DNA from: Sulfurospirillum multivorans DSM 12446
GTDB taxonomy: Bacteria > Campylobacterota > Campylobacteria > Campylobacterales > Sulfurospirillaceae
Assembly: GCF_000568815.1 (NCBI RefSeq)
Contig: NZ_CP007201.1
Coordinates: 2,799,654 to 2,863,653, forward strand
DNA: 64,000 bases
Direction: 5' to 3'
Positions 6,122 to 44,196 of this stretch are shown in pieces. Below the pieces are notes generated by a model. The model was given only the letters and a program-made list of their open reading frames with translations, made no database searches and was not told the origin of the DNA. The position numbers and the translations under genes were made by a program. The number at the start of each line of letters is the position of its first letter. Position 1 is the first letter of the stretch.

Positions 6122-6159
6122 GTGTATGATTGTTTAAGACCAATTTTCAGGATAAAACA

Positions 6160-6840
6160 ATGCAACCGAACCTCATAATGATCGAGGATGATGTCGAACT
6201 TGCCGAAATCTTATGCAATTTTTTAAAACGCTATAACATCACCGTCACCAACTACGACGACCCCTATCTTGGCATCAGTGCACTAAGCCTTATCAAATAT
6301 GACCTGCTCATTTTAGACCTCTCTTTGCCTGGTATGGACGGGCTAGAGATCTGCAAAGAGGTACGCGCCAAAAGCGATATTCCCATCATCATCTCCTCCG
6401 CACGAAGCGACTTGGAAGATAAAATCGTAGGCTTGGAACTTGGAGCAGACGACTACTTACCCAAACCCTATGAGCCCAAAGAGCTTTACGCGCGCATCAT
6501 CAGTGTGCTCAGACGCTACAAAAAAAGTAACTCAGTCAGTGAAGAGAGCAGTAGTTCCACGTTGATTCTCAAAGAAGAGAGTCACACCATCTTTTTTCAA
6601 GGTACACCACTCACACTCACCCCTGCGGAATACGACGTGCTCACCCATCTCATCAAAAAAAACAACTGCGTGGTCTCACGAACAGAGCTGCTTAACAGCG
6701 CACTGAGTCTCAATGAAGAGAATGAGAGCAGAAGCCTTGACGTGCTCATCAGCCGTATTCGTACCAAACTAGGCGAGAGCTCCAAAGAGCCTAAGCTGAT
6801 TCATTCCGTCAGAGGTATCGGGTATAGGCTTCAAGCATGA
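6160..6840 (+). CDS. OmpR-family response regulator (first ArsR-like)
   Basis: A receiver domain (phospho-acceptor D53 in LDLSLPGMDGL) is followed by a winged-helix DNA-binding domain ending in SVRGIGYRLQA, 226 residues in all. ATG 6160 was chosen over a TTG at 6130 because CAGGAT lies a suitable distance before it. The kinase gene overlaps its stop by four bases (ATGA). Closely resembles the regulator at 40402-41073, so the two pairs are probably paralogues of the ArsRS type of this phylum. Confidence 0.9.
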   Translation: MQPNLIMIEDDVELAEILCNFLKRYNITVTNYDDPYLGISALSLIKYDLLILDLSLPGMDGLEICKEVRAKSDIPIIISSARSDLEDKIVGLELGADDYLPKPYEPKELYARIISVLRRYKKSNSVSEESSSSTLILKEESHTIFFQGTPLTLTPAEYDVLTHLIKKNNCVVSRTELLNSALSLNEENESRSLDVLISRIRTKLGESSKEPKLIHSVRGIGYRLQA

Positions 6841-8066
6841 GGTGGTACCACTCCATCATCACGCGTATTTCGCTCATTTTTGCCCTCTCGTTGTTTGGCA
6901 TCACAGCGATCTTTGTCTCCATCGCACAGTATGAAACGGATAGAGAACTGCAAACAATGTTTGACTACTCGCGCGTTGCCTTACGCTCTTCGTTTGATCG
7001 CACCACGAAAGCTATCGACTTTGACAAGATGGAAGAGATCGGGTTTAAACTCGTTACCGATGAAGCGCTCAAACAAAAAATTCTCGAACGCCCTCGTCCT
7101 CCCAAACCGTTTCCGATGAAACGCATGGAAGAGCGGTTTCATTTTCTAATTGATTCGGTGCCGTATCGTATGCACATTTACACCATTTTGTTGGCACGCG
7201 ACGCACCGCCTATCGTCTTTGAAACGCCTTTAAAAAAAGAGATGATGCCCCGCCTCATTTTGCCACTGTTGAGCCTTGCATTTGTCATTTTTTTATACAT
7301 TGGCATTATTCGAAGCATTCTGCCGCTTAAAACACTCAGAGAGAAGATCAAACACTTTGCCAACGGGGATTATGACATTACATGTAAAAGCAGTAAAAAA
7401 GATGAAATCGCCGCCCTTGCCAATGAATTTGACAGTGCCGTTTTCAAAATCAAATCACTTCGAGACTCCAGACAGCTCTTTTTGCGCAACATCATGCACG
7501 AGCTCAAAACGCCCATTACCAAGGGAAAACTCGCCGCTGAAATGATTGAAGATGCCGCATATGCAAGGATCTTGCAAAACGTTTTCAACCGCCAAGAAGC
7601 ACTTTTGGAAGAGTTCTCGCGCATTGAAAAACTGAGTGCTGATGAGCTAAAATTGGAGATCAATCGTTATCATATTGAAGACGTGGTGGATTTTGCCCTT
7701 GACATTTTAGATGACAAACGAGAAAGCATTACATGTAAACTGGTACCGATGGAACTAGAGGTAGACTTTGAGCTGTTTGGCGTGGCGCTGAAAAACCTTT
7801 TGGACAATGGCATCAACTACTCCGACGACCACCACGTCAGCCTTCGCAATGATCTTAAAACCATCACCATTTCCAACCACGCCCCCGCGTTGGAGTTCAC
7901 CATTGAACGCTACGCTGAGCCTTATTTTCTAGAGGGCAAAAAACAAAAAAGCTCACGCGGTCTTGGCTTTGGACTGTTTATCACATGGCACGTGATTCGC
8001 CTACACGGGATGCGACTTGACTACAAACACGAAGCAGGCATGAACTGTTTTACGATTTACATGTAA
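6837..8066 (+). CDS. Sensor histidine kinase (first ArsS-like)
   Basis: The 409-residue kinase has membrane helices at about 10-30 and 139-158 flanking a periplasmic sensor region, a HAMP-like stretch, and a HisKA domain with H221 in RNIMHELKTPITKG. The ATP-binding domain reads NLLDNGINYSD then SSRGLGFGLFI. Partner of the regulator encoded just upstream. The reading frame ends in a TTTACATGTAAA copy (Tyr-Met-stop), and two more copies of the ten-base core lie within the gene. The input signal is unknown. Confidence 0.9.
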   Translation: MRWYHSIITRISLIFALSLFGITAIFVSIAQYETDRELQTMFDYSRVALRSSFDRTTKAIDFDKMEEIGFKLVTDEALKQKILERPRPPKPFPMKRMEERFHFLIDSVPYRMHIYTILLARDAPPIVFETPLKKEMMPRLILPLLSLAFVIFLYIGIIRSILPLKTLREKIKHFANGDYDITCKSSKKDEIAALANEFDSAVFKIKSLRDSRQLFLRNIMHELKTPITKGKLAAEMIEDAAYARILQNVFNRQEALLEEFSRIEKLSADELKLEINRYHIEDVVDFALDILDDKRESITCKLVPMELEVDFELFGVALKNLLDNGINYSDDHHVSLRNDLKTITISNHAPALEFTIERYAEPYFLEGKKQKSSRGLGFGLFITWHVIRLHGMRLDYKHEAGMNCFTIYM

Positions 8067-21380: not shown

Positions 21381-21759
21381 AACACTCTAGCCTTTGCCCG
21401 TATGATTTTATTTTATGTTTTAGTGTACTTTAACCTATCTTGGACTTTTATAAAAAAGGGTGAAATAGCCCGTTTTTAGGTAGATTTTCACGCAAATACT
21501 TTACATGTAAACACCAAACCACTTTCAAACCTTAATATTGTTTTAAACTAATTACACTATAATGACCACAATTTCAGAGCTTCATTAAAAAAGAACTTCA
21601 CCTAAAACCTACCAGATTTGAGAAATCCTCAGTGAGTATGTAGGTTTTTGCATACGATATTGACGGGTTTATTCCCCATTAAAATTTTTATGTACATGAG
21701 TTTTGTGCCATTGCCGCACGTTAGTATTGTTTTGGAAAAATCAAAAACATGGAAAATAC
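21381..21759 (+). promoter_or_regulatory. 379-base gene-free region: divergent promoters and long helicase leader
   Basis: No credible gene is seen here. A TTTACATGTAAA copy lies at 21500-21511. TATAAT at 21558-21563 is the likely -10 box of the DEAD-box gene, giving a leader of about 190 bases. Within it, AAAACCTAC at 21604-21612 pairs with GTAGGTTTT at 21640-21648 as a hairpin. Long structured leaders are common on cold-induced helicase mRNAs; cold control is an inference. Confidence 0.5.
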
Positions 21760-34807: not shown

Positions 34808-34888
34808 AAGGCTTCCTTCATCCGAATAATCTGTGGGCCGTCCCACATGCGATACTCTTTAAAGTCGTCTCTAAAGAGGCAAAATACG

Positions 34889-38900: not shown

Positions 38901-38994
38901 ACCTCCCGGGCTTTTATCCCTCCGTGAACCTCTACTCAAGAGGCGATAGCTCTCGGACCAGTCACAGAATCAATCTGTCGGAACCCTAGCTATC
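38901..38994 (-). ncRNA. Guanidine-I (ykkC) riboswitch
   Basis: Read on the minus strand, the stretch has every hallmark of the guanidine-I aptamer: the pairing GATAGCT/AGCTATC, CTAGGGTTCCG, ACTGGTCCGAGAG, then a hairpin (CCTCTTGAGTAGAGG) followed by CACGGAGGGATAAAAGCCCG and GGAGG. It ends about 45 bases before the binding-protein start. A second hairpin, GGGAGGTTTTCACCTCC, joins the aptamer end to the expression platform; it lacks a T-run, so control may act on translation or by an unusual terminator. Confidence 0.95.
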
Positions 38995-39046
38995 TTTGTT
39001 GTTTTTTGCGTCGAGGCTTTCGCCCCATGACATGTTTTCTAGCATA

Positions 39047-39116: not shown

Positions 39117-40409
39117 TTAGTTTACATGTAAAGCATGGGAAGAGAAATGAATCGTAAAGTAGTTTTGTTCTTCTACATGTAAATAACTCAAACGAAAGCC
39201 GTGCTTCTCGACAATGGCATTAGCGATGTAAAGTCCGAGCCCTAAACCACTGCTTGAACCCTCTACCGTTCGGTTAAAGGCACGTGAAAAGTCGAGTCGT
39301 TCTTGGGGGATTTTATCGCCAAAACTACTAATGCTGATGCTGTCACTGCACATATCGACTTCAACCCCATCGGCGGAGTGTTTCAGCGCATTGTCTAGCA
39401 CGTTTTTAAGGGCGGTGGCAAACAGTTCAAAATCGACAATCACCAGTGGCGCCATCTCTTGAGGAGCGATGTGAATGCGTTTGGTATCGCCTAAAAGGAG
39501 CAGATCCATCGCATGATCTAGTACATCGACGAGGCGGTACTCTTTGGCTTCGAGTATCCACTCGTTGGAGCTCAGTTTTTCGACTTTGACCATCTCGCCG
39601 AGTAAGGTTTCAAGGCGCTCAAAAATGCGCTCTAATTGAGGTTGTTGTTTGGCATTTTCAAGAGAATTGGAGAGGATTTTTCCTTTCATAATTGGCGTTT
39701 TAAGCTCATGCAAAATGTTGCGCAAAAAGAGCGTTCGAGCCTCTTTAAGCAGGTGAATCTTCTGCATCGCCACGTTAAACTCTGAAGCGATTTCTCCCAG
39801 TTCATCTTCGCTATCTACCTCGATCACTTGAAATTTTTTGGTCTCGCCGAAGGTTCGAATCGCGCTTTTGAGGCTACGAAGCCGCAACAGTTTACGAAGG
39901 ACTATGCCAAAAAAAAGCAGTAAAAGCACGTTAATGACGCCACCTAAAATCCAAAGGCGATACAGAGAAGTCTCTTCACTGTTTTCTAAAACCGTAGGTA
40001 ACTCTCCCATTGCACCATTATAAAAAGGTGGTGGAAAACGCTCCTCGCCACCCATCATCATCGGCGGTATCAGCATAGATGGAGGTGGAGGGGATTCTCT
40101 ATGAACAAAATAGAGTTTATCGTGATAGAGAATCATATCAGAGAAAGGATCTTCAAGAAGTTTTTCACCCTCTTTGAGCAGTGTCTCTTTGTCTTGATTG
40201 CTGATGCGAATACCCAGTTTTAAAAATGTTGCTTCTTGGTCGGCGTCGTTATGCAGCATCATTTTTGTCGCCATGATAAAACGCTGAAACGTAAAAAAGT
40301 GTAGATCACTAACTTGTCTTTTATATTCAAAGGCAAACGCAATATTAATCACCACCAACGTGAAGGCAAAAAAGATGGAAACCAGTGTAACGATCGATGT
40401 TTTACGCAT
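39117..40409 (-). CDS. Sensor histidine kinase (second ArsS-like)
   Basis: The 430-residue kinase has two membrane helices (about 7-28 and 152-171) around a periplasmic sensor with a striking Pro/Met-rich stretch at 106-134 (ESPPPPSMLIPPMMMGG then ERFPPPFYNG). The HisKA motif is RNILHELKTPIMKG. ATG 40409 was chosen, overlapping the regulator stop by eight bases; the longer frame would overlap it by 71. Paralogue of the kinase at 6837. The Met-rich loop could bind a soft metal such as copper, an inference only. Confidence 0.9.
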   Translation of the reverse strand: MRKTSIVTLVSIFFAFTLVVINIAFAFEYKRQVSDLHFFTFQRFIMATKMMLHNDADQEATFLKLGIRISNQDKETLLKEGEKLLEDPFSDMILYHDKLYFVHRESPPPPSMLIPPMMMGGEERFPPPFYNGAMGELPTVLENSEETSLYRLWILGGVINVLLLLFFGIVLRKLLRLRSLKSAIRTFGETKKFQVIEVDSEDELGEIASEFNVAMQKIHLLKEARTLFLRNILHELKTPIMKGKILSNSLENAKQQPQLERIFERLETLLGEMVKVEKLSSNEWILEAKEYRLVDVLDHAMDLLLLGDTKRIHIAPQEMAPLVIVDFELFATALKNVLDNALKHSADGVEVDMCSDSISISSFGDKIPQERLDFSRAFNRTVEGSSSGLGLGLYIANAIVEKHGFRLSYLHVEEQNYFTIHFSSHALHVN

Positions 40410-41073
40410 TAACAAATTTATACCCAACCCCTCGCACTGAGAGAATAAACCGAGGCTTTTTAGGATCATCACTGATTTTTTGGCGAATGCGTCCCATAAT
40501 CACATCGATACTTTTAAGACTGCTTTCGTACTTGATAGAGCCGATATTCATCAAAAGCTCTTCGCGTGAGATCACAAAACCCTCTTTTTTCAGCATATAC
40601 GAGACGATGTCATACTCTGCCATCGTAAGTCTCAGTTCATTTTTACCACGCTTGATGATGTGTCGCTCTTCATCAATGCTAAACGTAAAAGCAGTGGGTT
40701 CATTGATTGTATTGCCACGTCTTAAAATCGCCCGAAGCCTGTAAGCAAGTTCTCTTGGATCATAAGGTTTGGGTAAAAAATCATCCGCACCACGCTCAAA
40801 TCCCATCACTTTATCGCCCATGTCAGAACGTGCGGAGGAGATAATAATCGGAAGGGTTGGAATGGAAGCATGCACAATGCGGCAAATCTCTAAGCCGTCA
40901 ATTTGAGGCAAGGAGAGATCTAAAACAAGGGCATCAAAGGTGTCATGTTGGAGTGCTGTTAAGCCGTCCAAAGGGGTAAACGCCAATGTGGTTTCAATGT
41001 TCTCGTTTAAAAGAGATTCTTGAAGCAGTTGCGCGAGTTCAACGTCATCTTCGATCATTAAAATTTTAATCAT
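40402..41073 (-). CDS. OmpR-family response regulator (second ArsR-like)
   Basis: A 223-residue receiver plus winged-helix regulator with phospho-acceptor D52 (LVLDLSLPQIDGL) and the C-terminal SVRGVGYKFVNA. First gene of a two-gene unit with the kinase. Its promoter carries a GTAAAC-N5-GTAACA site that recurs at the EF-hand gene, suggesting autoregulation and a shared regulon. Confidence 0.92.
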   Translation of the reverse strand: MIKILMIEDDVELAQLLQESLLNENIETTLAFTPLDGLTALQHDTFDALVLDLSLPQIDGLEICRIVHASIPTLPIIISSARSDMGDKVMGFERGADDFLPKPYDPRELAYRLRAILRRGNTINEPTAFTFSIDEERHIIKRGKNELRLTMAEYDIVSYMLKKEGFVISREELLMNIGSIKYESSLKSIDVIMGRIRQKISDDPKKPRFILSVRGVGYKFVNA

Positions 41074-41079
41074 GGTTTG

Positions 41080-41113
41080 ATTATAACGAAGATAAAGTAA
41101 ACGGAAAGTAACA
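41080..41113 (-). promoter_or_regulatory. Promoter and direct-repeat site of the second ArsRS-like operon
   Basis: On the minus strand TGTTAC-N5-GTTTAC (plus strand GTAAAC at 41097-41102 and GTAACA at 41108-41113) is followed after 11 bases by TATAAT at 41085-41080. Direct half-sites 11 bases apart are the usual form of an OmpR-type site. The -10 box is only seven bases from the start codon, so the transcript would be nearly leaderless. Confidence 0.55.
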
Positions 41114-41115
41114 TA

Positions 41116-41143
41116 AAACCACGCCTTGCTTAGAGCGTGGTTT
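41116..41143 (-). terminator. Terminator of the EF-hand gene
   Basis: AAACCACGC at 41116-41124 pairs with GCGTGGTTT at 41135-41143; on the minus strand the second arm ends in GGTTTTATG. It lies just after the EF-hand stop codon and separates that gene from the two-component operon downstream. Confidence 0.72.
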
Positions 41144-41148
41144 GAGGC

Positions 41149-42099
41149 TTAGGCACTAAAGCTGACAGAGGTTCCAGCAAGAGTATTTTGAGAAGCATAG
41201 TTTGCGATGATTTGCGCTAAAAGCGTTTGCATCAACTCTTCACTACTGGTTGTACTCTCTTCTGTTGTATCCGTTGTTGTACCAGAACTTTCTGCTTGCG
41301 CAGAGTCCTGGTAGGCTCGTGCTTCAGTGGCGCTTACTGTACCATCTTCGTTGGTATCAGCGGCATCAAAATTCTCAGCCAATGCTTCATAGAGCGATGA
41401 AAGGGCACTATCCGTTGATGAAGTCTCACTCGCCATAGCGGTAAGCTCATCCACAGTGTAACCCGTATCGTCCTCATCCTCATCTGTTGAAGAAGAAGAT
41501 GATGGCGGTGGTGGCGGGGGCGTGCCTCCAGCCGCAGATACTGTACTCATCTCTGTTGCATCGGTTGTCTCTAATGATGATTGTTGATAAGCCATTGCTT
41601 CAGCTGAAGTCACTTTACCATCACCATCGGTATCAGCTGCCTCGAAATTCTCCGAAATAGCTGAAAGTAAAGTCGAAAGGTTCGTATCGGTTGAAGCACT
41701 CTCTTCCGCCATAGCGGTAAGTTCTTCAGCGGTATAACCCGTATCTTCTTCACTGGATGATGATGTAGGTGGCGGAGGTGGGGGCATACCTGACGCTACC
41801 GTCTCAGATTCTTCAGTCGTAAACAATGAACTTAGTTCATCCTCACTGATCGTTCCATCTCCATCACTGTCTAACGATGAAAAAGCACTACTAATAGTAC
41901 TTTCGTCACTGTTTGACAATGCTAAAGCTGCACTGCTAAACTCAGCACTGTCAATAGCACCACTCGAATCAGAATCCATAGATGTAAGCAACGCATCTAC
42001 GAAATCTGAAGTACTCGAACTGGTACTACTGCTGGTACTGCTGCCATACGAACCGTACAAAGACGTTTCGTAGAGAGAATTTGAACTTATCGTCATCAT
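41149..42099 (-). CDS. Four-EF-hand Ser/Asp-rich protein with duplicated modules
   Basis: The 316-residue protein has four EF-hand loops with canonical positions 1, 3, 5, 9 and 12: 42-53 (DSDSSGAIDSAE), 77-88 (DSDGDGTISEDE), 156-167 (DTDGDGKVTSAE) and 248-259 (DTNEDGTVSATE). Residues 105-180 and 194-265 are near-copies, each a poly-Pro run, Ser/Glu/Asp linker, DTGYT(A/V)(E/D)ELTAMA helix and one EF hand. No signal peptide or membrane helix is visible. Probably a calcium-binding or calcium-buffering protein; where it acts is unknown. Confidence 0.85.
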   Translation of the reverse strand: MMTISSNSLYETSLYGSYGSSTSSSTSSSTSDFVDALLTSMDSDSSGAIDSAEFSSAALALSNSDESTISSAFSSLDSDGDGTISEDELSSLFTTEESETVASGMPPPPPPTSSSSEEDTGYTAEELTAMAEESASTDTNLSTLLSAISENFEAADTDGDGKVTSAEAMAYQQSSLETTDATEMSTVSAAGGTPPPPPPSSSSSTDEDEDDTGYTVDELTAMASETSSTDSALSSLYEALAENFDAADTNEDGTVSATEARAYQDSAQAESSGTTTDTTEESTTSSEELMQTLLAQIIANYASQNTLAGTSVSFSA

Positions 42100-42135
42100 C
42101 TCCTCCTTTGTTGGCTTGGGAATTTCCCAGTAGCA

Positions 42136-42169
42136 ATCCTATCACCCATGTGGTAAACAGTGGGTAACA
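42136..42169 (-). promoter_or_regulatory. Promoter and direct-repeat site of the EF-hand gene
   Basis: The plus strand has GTAAAC at 42153-42158 and GTAACA at 42164-42169, the same pair as upstream of the second ArsRS-like operon. On the minus strand it is followed after 11 bases by TAGGAT (42141-42136), a weaker -10 box. The GTGG flanks extend the repeat. A TTTACATGTAAA copy lies at 42181-42192. Confidence 0.5.
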
Positions 42170-42262
42170 ATGAAAAAAGTTTTACATGTAAAGAGGCAAC
42201 CTATTCGTAATCGTCTGGAAACTCTTTCGTTATAAGATTTTCCAAAACAAAAAAGGGTTCTC

Positions 42263-43078
42263 ATGAAAACAGGAATTCAAGGTGTTATTTGCGATTGGGC
42301 AGGGACAATGGTCGATTTTGGTTCGCTCTCTCCGGTCACTGCATTTAGTGAAGCGTTTGAACGTTTTGGGTTTAGCGTGAGTTTTGATGAAATTCGAACG
42401 TTTATGGGAATGCTCAAATATGACCATGCCAAAGCCATTTTAAATCTAACCAAAGAGCGCTTTTTGGAGCAATTTGGGCGCTACCCAACCGAAGAGGACG
42501 TGCAGACAATTTACTGCTCTTTTGAACCTGCTCTTTTTGATGTATTGGCACACCATAGCATTCCTATCGAAGGGGCAGTTGCTTTTGCTGAAGCACTCAA
42601 AGCGCGTTCCATAAAACTGGGCTCCACGACGGGTTATACCGCTTCCATGATGGAAGTTGTTACGCGTGAAGCGGCAAAACAGGGCTACAAACCTGAGTGC
42701 TACATCACACCCTCAGCATTTTTACCCGGGCGACCGCACCCTTTTATGATCTACAAAAATGCCATCGAATTGGAAATCTATCCGCTCAGTGCTATCGTTA
42801 AAATTGGCGATACGATCAGCGATATTCATGAAGGGCTAAATGCAGGATGTTGGAGTATTGGCGTCGCCCTTAGCGGTAATGAGCTAGGTCTCTCTTACGA
42901 TTCTTATAAAGAACTCCCCGCCTCTCTTTTAGAAGAAAAACGCCTTCATGCCCATCAAAAACTAGGAGCCGCAGGAGCACATTGCGTGATTGATGGCATT
43001 TGGGACGCTTTACCTCTTCTTGACATTATTCATGAAAAAATAAAAAATGGGGAAAAACCATGCCACATTCATCTCTAA
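42263..43078 (+). CDS. phnX: Phosphonoacetaldehyde hydrolase
   Basis: The 271-residue HAD-fold enzyme has the nucleophile D11 in [11 protein letters not shown] (the D-W-A-G-T form typical of PhnX), the Schiff-base lysine candidate K52 in MGMLKYDHA, and [14 protein letters not shown]. It splits phosphonoacetaldehyde to acetaldehyde and phosphate. It overlaps phnW by 19 bases. A ribosome binding site (AAAAGGGTT) precedes the start. Confidence 0.95.
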
Positions 43079-44196
43079 ACACCCTAGATCTAACCCATAT
43101 TCCACAAAATGCCTACCTCCTGTTAACACCAGGTCCGCTAAGTACCAGTAAGCGCGTTCGTGCTGGGTTATTAAAAGATTGGTGTACGTGGGATAAAGAG
43201 TATAACGACATGGTACAAGAGATTCGCTCTCGCCTGGTTGCCTTAGCGTCTAAAAGCGATGCGTATACCGCTGTACTGATGCAAGGAAGTGGTACCTTTT
43301 GTGTCGAATCGGCGATCACCACACTCTTGCCCAAAGAAGGAGCCAAACTGCTCGTTTTAACCAACGGCGCTTATGGCGAACGTATCGCGGAGATTGCTGC
43401 GTACGCTTCCATTCCTTGCGTTACATGTAACGTCGAAGAGACAACAACATTTTCTTTAGAAGCCGTCGAATACCTTTTGCAAAATGATCCGTCTATTACC
43501 GCTATTGCTGTGGTGCATTGTGAAACGACGACGGGTATTTTAAACCCTATCTTTGAAGTGGCTAAGCTTTCAAAAGCGTATCATAAACTCTTGATCGTTG
43601 ATGCTATGAGCAGTTTTGGAGGTATTCCAATCGACCTTGACGCACTGGATGCTGACGTGCTGATCTCCAGTGCCAATAAGTGTATTCAAGGTGTTCCAGG
43701 CTTTGGCTTTATGCTCTTTAAAAAAAAGATTTTAAAGCGTTGTTTCGGCAATGCGCGTTCCTTAAGCCTTGATGCGTATGCCCAATATAAAACCATGGAA
43801 GAAGGTGGTGGTAAATGGCGTTTTACCTCACCAACGCATGTTGTGCACGCCTTTATCGAAGCCTTGTATGAACTGGAAGAAGAAGGTGGCGTAGAGGCAC
43901 GTTATACGCGTTATTGTACCAATCAGCGTTTGTTAATTGAAGGCATGGAAGCTTTGAATTTTGAATGCGTCATCGACCAAACCTTGCAAAGTCCTATCAT
44001 CACGAGTTTTTATAGTCCAAACCATACTTCGTACGATTTTAAAGAATTTTATTTACGCCTCAAACACAAAGGGTTTGTCATCTACCCTGGTAAAGTTTCC
44101 AATATCGAGAGCTTTCGCATCGGTACGATCGGGCATGTTTTTCCTGAGGATATTGCCCGCTTACTCAAAGCCGTGCAAGAGGCAATTTTTTGGTAA
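43060..44196 (+). CDS. phnW: 2-aminoethylphosphonate-pyruvate transaminase
   Basis: The 378-residue class V aminotransferase has [14 protein letters not shown] near the start and the PLP lysine K207 in [15 protein letters not shown]. It converts 2-aminoethylphosphonate and pyruvate to phosphonoacetaldehyde and alanine, the step before PhnX. ATG 43060 lies inside phnX after GGGGAAAAACC. The next gene starts within its last codons. Confidence 0.95.

Follow-up and report, generated by a model that had tools for sequence, protein, structure and literature searches.

Gene layout at the locus

We analyse a 64,000-nucleotide stretch of the Sulfurospirillum multivorans DSM 12446 chromosome (contig NZ_CP007201.1, positions 2,799,654 to 2,863,653; hereafter the window) in which one 17-bp direct-repeat element stands before an EF-hand protein gene and again before the adjoining genes of a two-component system. 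The genome is a single contig of 3,175,729 bp (~3.18 Mb), and the order of transcription, on the minus strand, is EF-hand gene, OmpR-type response regulator, ArsS-family sensor kinase. We consider it likely, from the sequence evidence below, that this ArsS-family/OmpR-type system binds the repeat with its 11-bp period, activates the EF-hand gene and regulates its own promoter, with the regulator translated from a leaderless mRNA. The features of this cassette, in the order in which they are transcribed, are:

42153-42169 (-), direct-repeat site TGTTAC-N5-GTTTAC of the EF-hand promoter, kept in all 37 distinct EF-hand promoters with upstream DNA
42136-42141 (-), TAGGAT as the EF-hand -10 box, separated from the site by 11 bp
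42117-42129 (-), predicted stem-loop TGGGAAATTCCCA with which the EF-hand mRNA would begin; 36 of 37 leaders have it in their best fold
41149-42099 (-), EF-hand protein gene, 316 amino acids, with four EF-hand loops and polyproline linkers
41116-41143 (-), terminator-like hairpin, read in the sequence, in the gap between the EF-hand gene and the regulator site
41097-41113 (-), direct-repeat site TGTTAC-N5-GTTTAC of the regulator promoter, present in 37 of 38 loci
41080-41085 (-), -10 box TATAAT of the regulator, 6 nucleotides before the ATG, with a predicted leaderless mRNA
40402-41073 (-), OmpR-type response regulator, 223 amino acids, Response_reg and Trans_reg_C domains above cut-offs
39117-40472 (-), open reading frame (ORF) of 451 amino acids for an ArsS-family sensor histidine kinase (NF038389) with a proline-rich sensor region; the true start probably lies further inside the ORF

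The original prediction had described two copies of GTAAAC-N5-GTAACA, each 11 bases from a -10 box, at the regulator and EF-hand promoters. Both copies are exact at 41097-41113 and 42153-42169, and the distance is exactly 11 bp to TATAAT (41080-41085) and to TAGGAT (42136-42141). The motif in that form is the plus strand; along the genes it reads TGTTAC-N5-GTTTAC, in which (G/T)TTAC occurs twice in direct orientation with a period of 11 bp. The exact site occurs twice in the whole genome, at these two promoters. The other ArsRS-like system of the window (6130-8066) has no site in the stretch read before its regulator, nor does one appear there among the window matches with up to two mismatches. 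The genes flanking the cassette vary from genome to genome.

Conservation of the site in loci found by protein

We searched for the EF-hand protein in 24 genomes of the genus, where the best E-values of the matches were 1.4e-32 or lower. The gene is present in 20 of the 24, and in every one of these the site precedes both the EF-hand gene (including that of G012, which is split between contigs) and the regulator, the latter being read via L085 for G020 and via L118 for G022. At the level of the class, a profile of the EF-hand family matched 19 of 298 genomes, 18 of them with the cassette and one, G299, with an unlinked EF-hand gene only. Six cassettes lie outside the genus, one in the same family (G083) and five in another (G137, G153, G182, G204 and G218); here the site precedes the EF-hand gene in 6/6 and the regulator in 5/6. 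In loci found without any use of the site, the total is thus 26/26 genomes with the site at the EF-hand promoter and 25/26 with it at the regulator. The original prediction had named a lack of conservation in relatives as grounds for giving it up, and we find that two or more families of the order have retained the site.

The cassette genes also occur together. Regulator identity is 78-100% in genus genomes with the EF-hand gene, and it never exceeds 53% in the four members without it (G013, G018, G019 and G021; G018 and G019 are less than 90% complete). Across the 298 class genomes, those with a regulator of at least 64% identity number 18 and are the same 18 that have the cassette; five genomes of a third family have a regulator at 56-62% identity and no EF-hand match. 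Among 38 loci compared at the regulator, 12 of which entered solely through the regulator pattern described next, the site is present in 37 and missing from L045.

Conservation of the site in loci found by pattern

A scan for the site at a fixed distance to TATAAT, which the original prediction had proposed, was made with the pattern TGTTAC-N6-TTTAC-N11-TATAAT-N5/6-ATG in a collection holding one genome per species (84,980 species by its description). It returned 29 loci, 26 of which precede this regulator; L066, counted among the 26, shows the first residues of the regulator before the frame is lost near the contig end. An EF-hand ORF is visible upstream in 25 of the 26 (the frame is broken in L085, and L084 starts too close), and the EF-hand site is present in all 21 pattern loci that have DNA before the EF-hand gene, with AATTAC as the second half-site in L061, L066, L068 and L086. 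The record titles name Sulfurospirillum, Sulfuricurvum, Sulfurimonas, Sulfurovum (L071 and L079, two of the three loci without this regulator) or coarser groups. This tally overlaps the one obtained by protein, at least nine loci sharing their EF-hand protein with a genome already counted. One further locus, L087, labelled Patescibacteria, precedes a 442-amino-acid ORF resembling a tRNA synthetase; we regard it as a chance match.

Geometry of the promoters

The argument from identical spacing, that it is unlikely to arise by chance, holds up well in a pool of 37 distinct EF-hand promoters with upstream DNA. The gap between half-sites is 6 in 37/37 and the gap to TANNNT is 11 in 37/37; alternative half-site gaps of 3-9 give no match, alternative -10 gaps of 7-15 give none except two extra matches at 14, and none of 14,800 shuffled versions of the upstream regions contains the site. 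Invariant letters are TGTTAC, the second TTAC and, in the -10 box, TA, while the spacer is largely variable and the upstream DNA mostly so.

The two promoters have very different -10 boxes. Those of the EF-hand genes are poor and are TATAAT in none of the 37, so this promoter should need its activator. The regulator -10 is TATAAT in 37 of 38 loci, a count to be read with the fact that 12 of the 38 entered only via a pattern demanding TATAAT, and it ends 5-7 nucleotides before the ATG across loci; since this leaves no room for a ribosome-binding site, we predict a leaderless regulator mRNA. Campylobacter RpoD promoters are not known to have a clear -35 box, and a missing -35 is weak evidence in this phylum.

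Two hairpins accompany the sites. The hairpin-like inverted repeat between the EF-hand gene and the regulator site is also found in the relatives compared, and in the other of the two families its stem extends into the regulator site. At the 5' end of the EF-hand mRNA, the stem-loop belongs to the best fold in all leaders except that of L068, with stem letters that differ between the two families; taken singly it is weak (mean z -1.9; for 15 of 37 leaders, no more than 10 of 200 shuffles do as well).

The regulator and its kinase

The regulator has a receiver domain (Response_reg, 78.7 bits, cut-off 30.2) and a winged helix (Trans_reg_C, 67.7 bits, cut-off 26.2), the combination that defines the OmpR/PhoB type. 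Its kinase belongs to the ArsS family by NF038389 (349.9 bits, cut-off 250); among Pfam domains, HATPase_c scores above its cut-off and HisKA, at 20.7, below its 26.9. In an alignment of 21 orthologues of the linked kinase, the sensor part holds a run of at least four prolines in 18, versus 1 of 10 unlinked ArsS-type kinases. The total proline count is no clean separator, two unlinked kinases of the own genome having 10 and 12.

EF-hand proteins and a second target

The 316-amino-acid product is an EF-hand protein by EF-hand_1 (62.6 bits, cut-off 25.4) with four loop matches. Assignment to the XopAW family (NF041410) fails at 69.9 bits against a cut-off of 120, and to Lanmodulin (NF053806) at 27.7 bits against 135. 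Its homologues start at the second Met, and the ends of the protein are conserved. The structural model has three helical lobes joined by disordered linkers (mean predicted local distance difference test, pLDDT, 61.6; predicted template-modelling score, pTM, 0.25), and no signal peptide was seen by reading, no predictor having been run. Polyproline occurs in all 38 distinct EF-hand proteins that adjoin the regulator, versus 0 of 7 distinct ones elsewhere.

A second, small EF-hand gene (~154 amino acids) is found in five genus genomes. In four of them it lies 149-155 kb away on the same contig, and the fifth has it on a different contig. Its promoter reads TGTTAC-N5-AGTTAC-N11-TANAAT in 5/5 of these Sulfurospirillum genomes, which makes it an unlinked second EF-hand target in five relatives.

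The neighbourhood of this small gene has a feature of its own. In L035, positions 1444-2765 hold the small gene and, directly after it, a flavin transferase gene that scores 172.9 bits for ApbE (cut-off 25.6). The gene after the second EF-hand gene was read in three of the five genomes, one of which was tested and is ApbE; the pair is also seen in L034 and L038, and, by reading, outside the genus in L051, there without the site.

We have also considered whether the cassette is a closed sensing loop, in which the EF-hand product serves its own kinase as an accessory ligand, allowing the system to measure a free ion. The EF-hand protein would leave the cytoplasm without a Sec signal, take up Ca2+ or another metal outside and contact the proline-rich sensor region of the kinase. 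The hint comes from the prolines, because polyproline goes with regulator linkage in the EF-hand proteins and proline runs go with linkage in the kinases. This proline link is a correlation only, and we regard the loop as a long shot.

Proposed mechanism and competing explanations

In the mechanism that we favour, the response regulator encoded at 40402-41073 would bind the 17-bp element. Two (G/T)TTAC copies 11 bp apart, or one helical turn, would match the binding of an OmpR-family dimer, and in all 37 EF-hand promoters the geometry is that of an OmpR-type direct repeat (~11-bp period near -35). The site would lie at about -40 to -24, where OmpR-family activator dimers sit, so that the regulator, once bound, would contact RNA polymerase there; such placement of an activator is read as class II activation. 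At the EF-hand gene, with its poor -10 box, the bound regulator would switch the gene on. At the regulator promoter, with its perfect TATAAT and leaderless mRNA, it would give autoregulation of regulator and kinase, the sign of which could go either way. The EF-hand gene and the regulator-kinase pair would be separate transcription units, split by the terminator-like hairpin. We infer that the site is bound by this regulator, that binding leads to activation and that the regulator message starts without a leader, activation being what fits both the geometry and the poor EF-hand -10 box.

Several observations weigh against the site itself or against this mechanism. Imprecise matches to the site are not enriched: the window holds 8 with up to two mismatches versus 4.9 expected (12 of 100 shuffles reach 8), and the genome holds 15 with up to one mismatch, 2 of them exact, versus 26 for a reversed control. 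Because these counts are not above chance, such matches are uninformative and we exclude them from the argument; the decisive evidence for the site is its conservation. G083 lacks the site at its regulator, the second EF-hand genes outside the genus lack it in all four loci (0/4; L047, L051, L054 and L055), and the full pattern occurs without this regulator in two Sulfurovum loci (L071 and L079). Finally, a similar word stands before other genes, at 22 bp from the -10 box, both for a paralogous regulator of the own genome and among relatives of another family, so another regulator could bind too.

In the two Sulfurovum loci, the full site and TATAAT (L071 3858-3899, plus strand; L079 2992-3033, minus strand) stand before an ORF of 30-32 amino acids. 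No Rfam family matched these short ORF regions, and the sites perhaps precede a small RNA.

A one-mismatch site before a cytochrome c gene was considered as a further regulon member. Among 24 loci, taken as the best match per genus genome, it is present in 3 (own genome, G004 and G011), absent from 17 and unread in 4. Because even an identical protein in G010 has no such site before its gene, we left this gene out of the regulon; the site may have a role in the three genomes that carry it.

The linked regulator could instead be a repressor, which would block RNA polymerase at one or both promoters and allow expression on release. The regulator promoter already has a perfect TATAAT, and ArsRS of Helicobacter pylori is described as negatively autoregulated (PMC9449129). 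Set against this are the poor -10 boxes of the EF-hand promoters in 37/37 and the fixed 11-bp distance, also in 37/37, which points to polymerase contact rather than to blocking. We consider repression unlikely.

The site could also be read mainly by another OmpR-type regulator of the same clade, such as the paralogue in the own genome, which is 71% identical, has its own kinase and lies at 2.92 Mb. The recognition region of this paralogue is nearly identical to that of the linked regulator. Its divergent neighbour is a small gene at 22.5 bits versus the cut-off of 24.1 of a transposase helix-turn-helix family, and before this neighbour stands TGTTACCAACCATTTAC, a similar TGTTACC-N4-5-TTTAC word, 22 bp from a -10-like TAAGAT. 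A 22-bp spacing, there to TATGAT, is seen again in G017 and in third-family relatives before other genes; the clade seems to share a DNA word. However, the paralogue's word is 22 bp and not 11 bp from the -10 box, site-bearing genomes always have the linked regulator whereas a paralogue of at least 70% identity is found only in G000, G006 and G017, and genomes without the EF-hand gene also lack the linked regulator. We therefore hold it to be very improbable that the paralogue is the main reader.

Transposase-like small helix-turn-helix genes stand beside a paralogous ArsRS-like system in three genomes (L127 2010-2495, L128 2134-2619 and L129 2258-2717, all on the minus strand), where a TGTTACC-TTTAC word lies at 22 bp from the -10 box. 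This gene is possibly domesticated and controlled by the paralogous system.

That the site is a chance match, or a by-product of the repeated palindrome TTTACATGTAAA that shares TTTAC with it and adjoins the EF-hand site, can draw on the chance-level counts of imprecise matches and on the 730 genome copies of the palindrome, but is scarcely credible given the spacing fixed in 37/37, sites kept in G009 with 14 palindromes and an EF-hand site kept in G083 with none.

Relation to known systems

The activation complexes of PmrA/BasR and of Mycobacterium tuberculosis PhoP (PDB 8jo2, 9ji3) have the same fold as our regulator by sequence; they differ in being distant in sequence (E-values 1.5e-26 and 4e-25) and in their half-sites and regulons. 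Complexes of this type have direct-repeat sites at the -35, adjoining the -10. The DccR box of Campylobacter jejuni, WTTCAC-N6-TTCACW, has the same 11-bp period and place with other half-site letters; it was not found here, where the repeat is GTTAC-N6-TTTAC and the period alone agrees. DccRS is also similar in being OmpR-type with few targets, and different in that those targets are described as putative proteins of the periplasm and membrane (PMC9449129).

Within the same genus, the RR2/PceP system of tetrachloroethene (PCE) respiration likewise has an OmpR-family regulator and several linked promoters, with 5-bp direct repeats, 6-nucleotide gaps and overlap with the -35 region (PMC7755780). 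It differs in its CTATA/CTATW half-sites, in having three repeats of which the outer two, 17 bp apart, are used, and in targeting reductive dehalogenation genes; a PceP-type element of CTATW half-sites 17 bp apart is not present at our promoters, which have (G/T)TTAC with a 6-bp gap. Binding has been demonstrated for RR2/PceP (PMC7755780), whereas at the present site it is predicted. H. pylori ArsRS resembles our system in its NF038389 kinase family and in an autoregulated OmpR-type regulator co-transcribed with the kinase; its known targets are acid acclimation, adhesin and biofilm genes, with no mention of an EF-hand target in the part of PMC9449129 available. On the side of the target, EfhP of Pseudomonas aeruginosa and calsymin of Rhizobium etli are bacterial EF-hand proteins too, from which ours appears to be set apart by its Ser-rich ends, polyproline linkers and adjoining two-component system. 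In the open-licence literature searched we found no description of this regulon, nor of an EF-hand target of such a two-component system.

The palindrome and neighbouring genes

We reject TTTACATGTAAA as part of the site because it is a genome-wide repeat and is missing beside some EF-hand promoters that keep the site (L015, L018, L023, L027 and L031). This 12-bp palindrome is highly iterated, with 730 copies in the genome against 0 for its reversed control. The window holds 22 exact copies (for example 894-905, 21500-21511, 39121-39132 and 42181-42192), 12 of them inside hand-picked ORFs, and 39 of the 49 ACATGT in the window extend to TTACATGTAA. The 24 genus genomes have from 14 to 792 copies; among 200 class genomes most have 0-3, with 283 in G184, 86 in G149, 37 in G193, 27 in G213 and 21 in G137. 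The repeat recalls HIP1 or an uptake sequence, and a literature search for the exact string gave unrelated papers only.

Divergent from the EF-hand promoter, genes for phosphonoacetaldehyde hydrolase and 2-aminoethylphosphonate transaminase occupy 42263-44196 (+), both above cut-offs and starting 94 bp from its site. A Guanidine-I riboswitch at 38901-39000 (-), 91.6 bits (cut-off 63), stands before urea-type ATP-binding cassette (ABC) transporter genes, and a borderline guanidine-II riboswitch lies at 34833-34876 (-), 33.1 bits (cut-off 32).

Significance

The original prediction of a two-component system governing the EF-hand gene is supported, as far as sequence can go, by the conservation of the sites, the ArsS-family kinase and the OmpR-type domains, and the cassette is a two-component module that is well defined, of a known kind and unusual in its target. 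It offers a sharply predicted regulon, with regulator, site, spacing and target, in free-living Campylobacterota, and the condition that switches the EF-hand promoter on would point to the role of a bacterial EF-hand protein.

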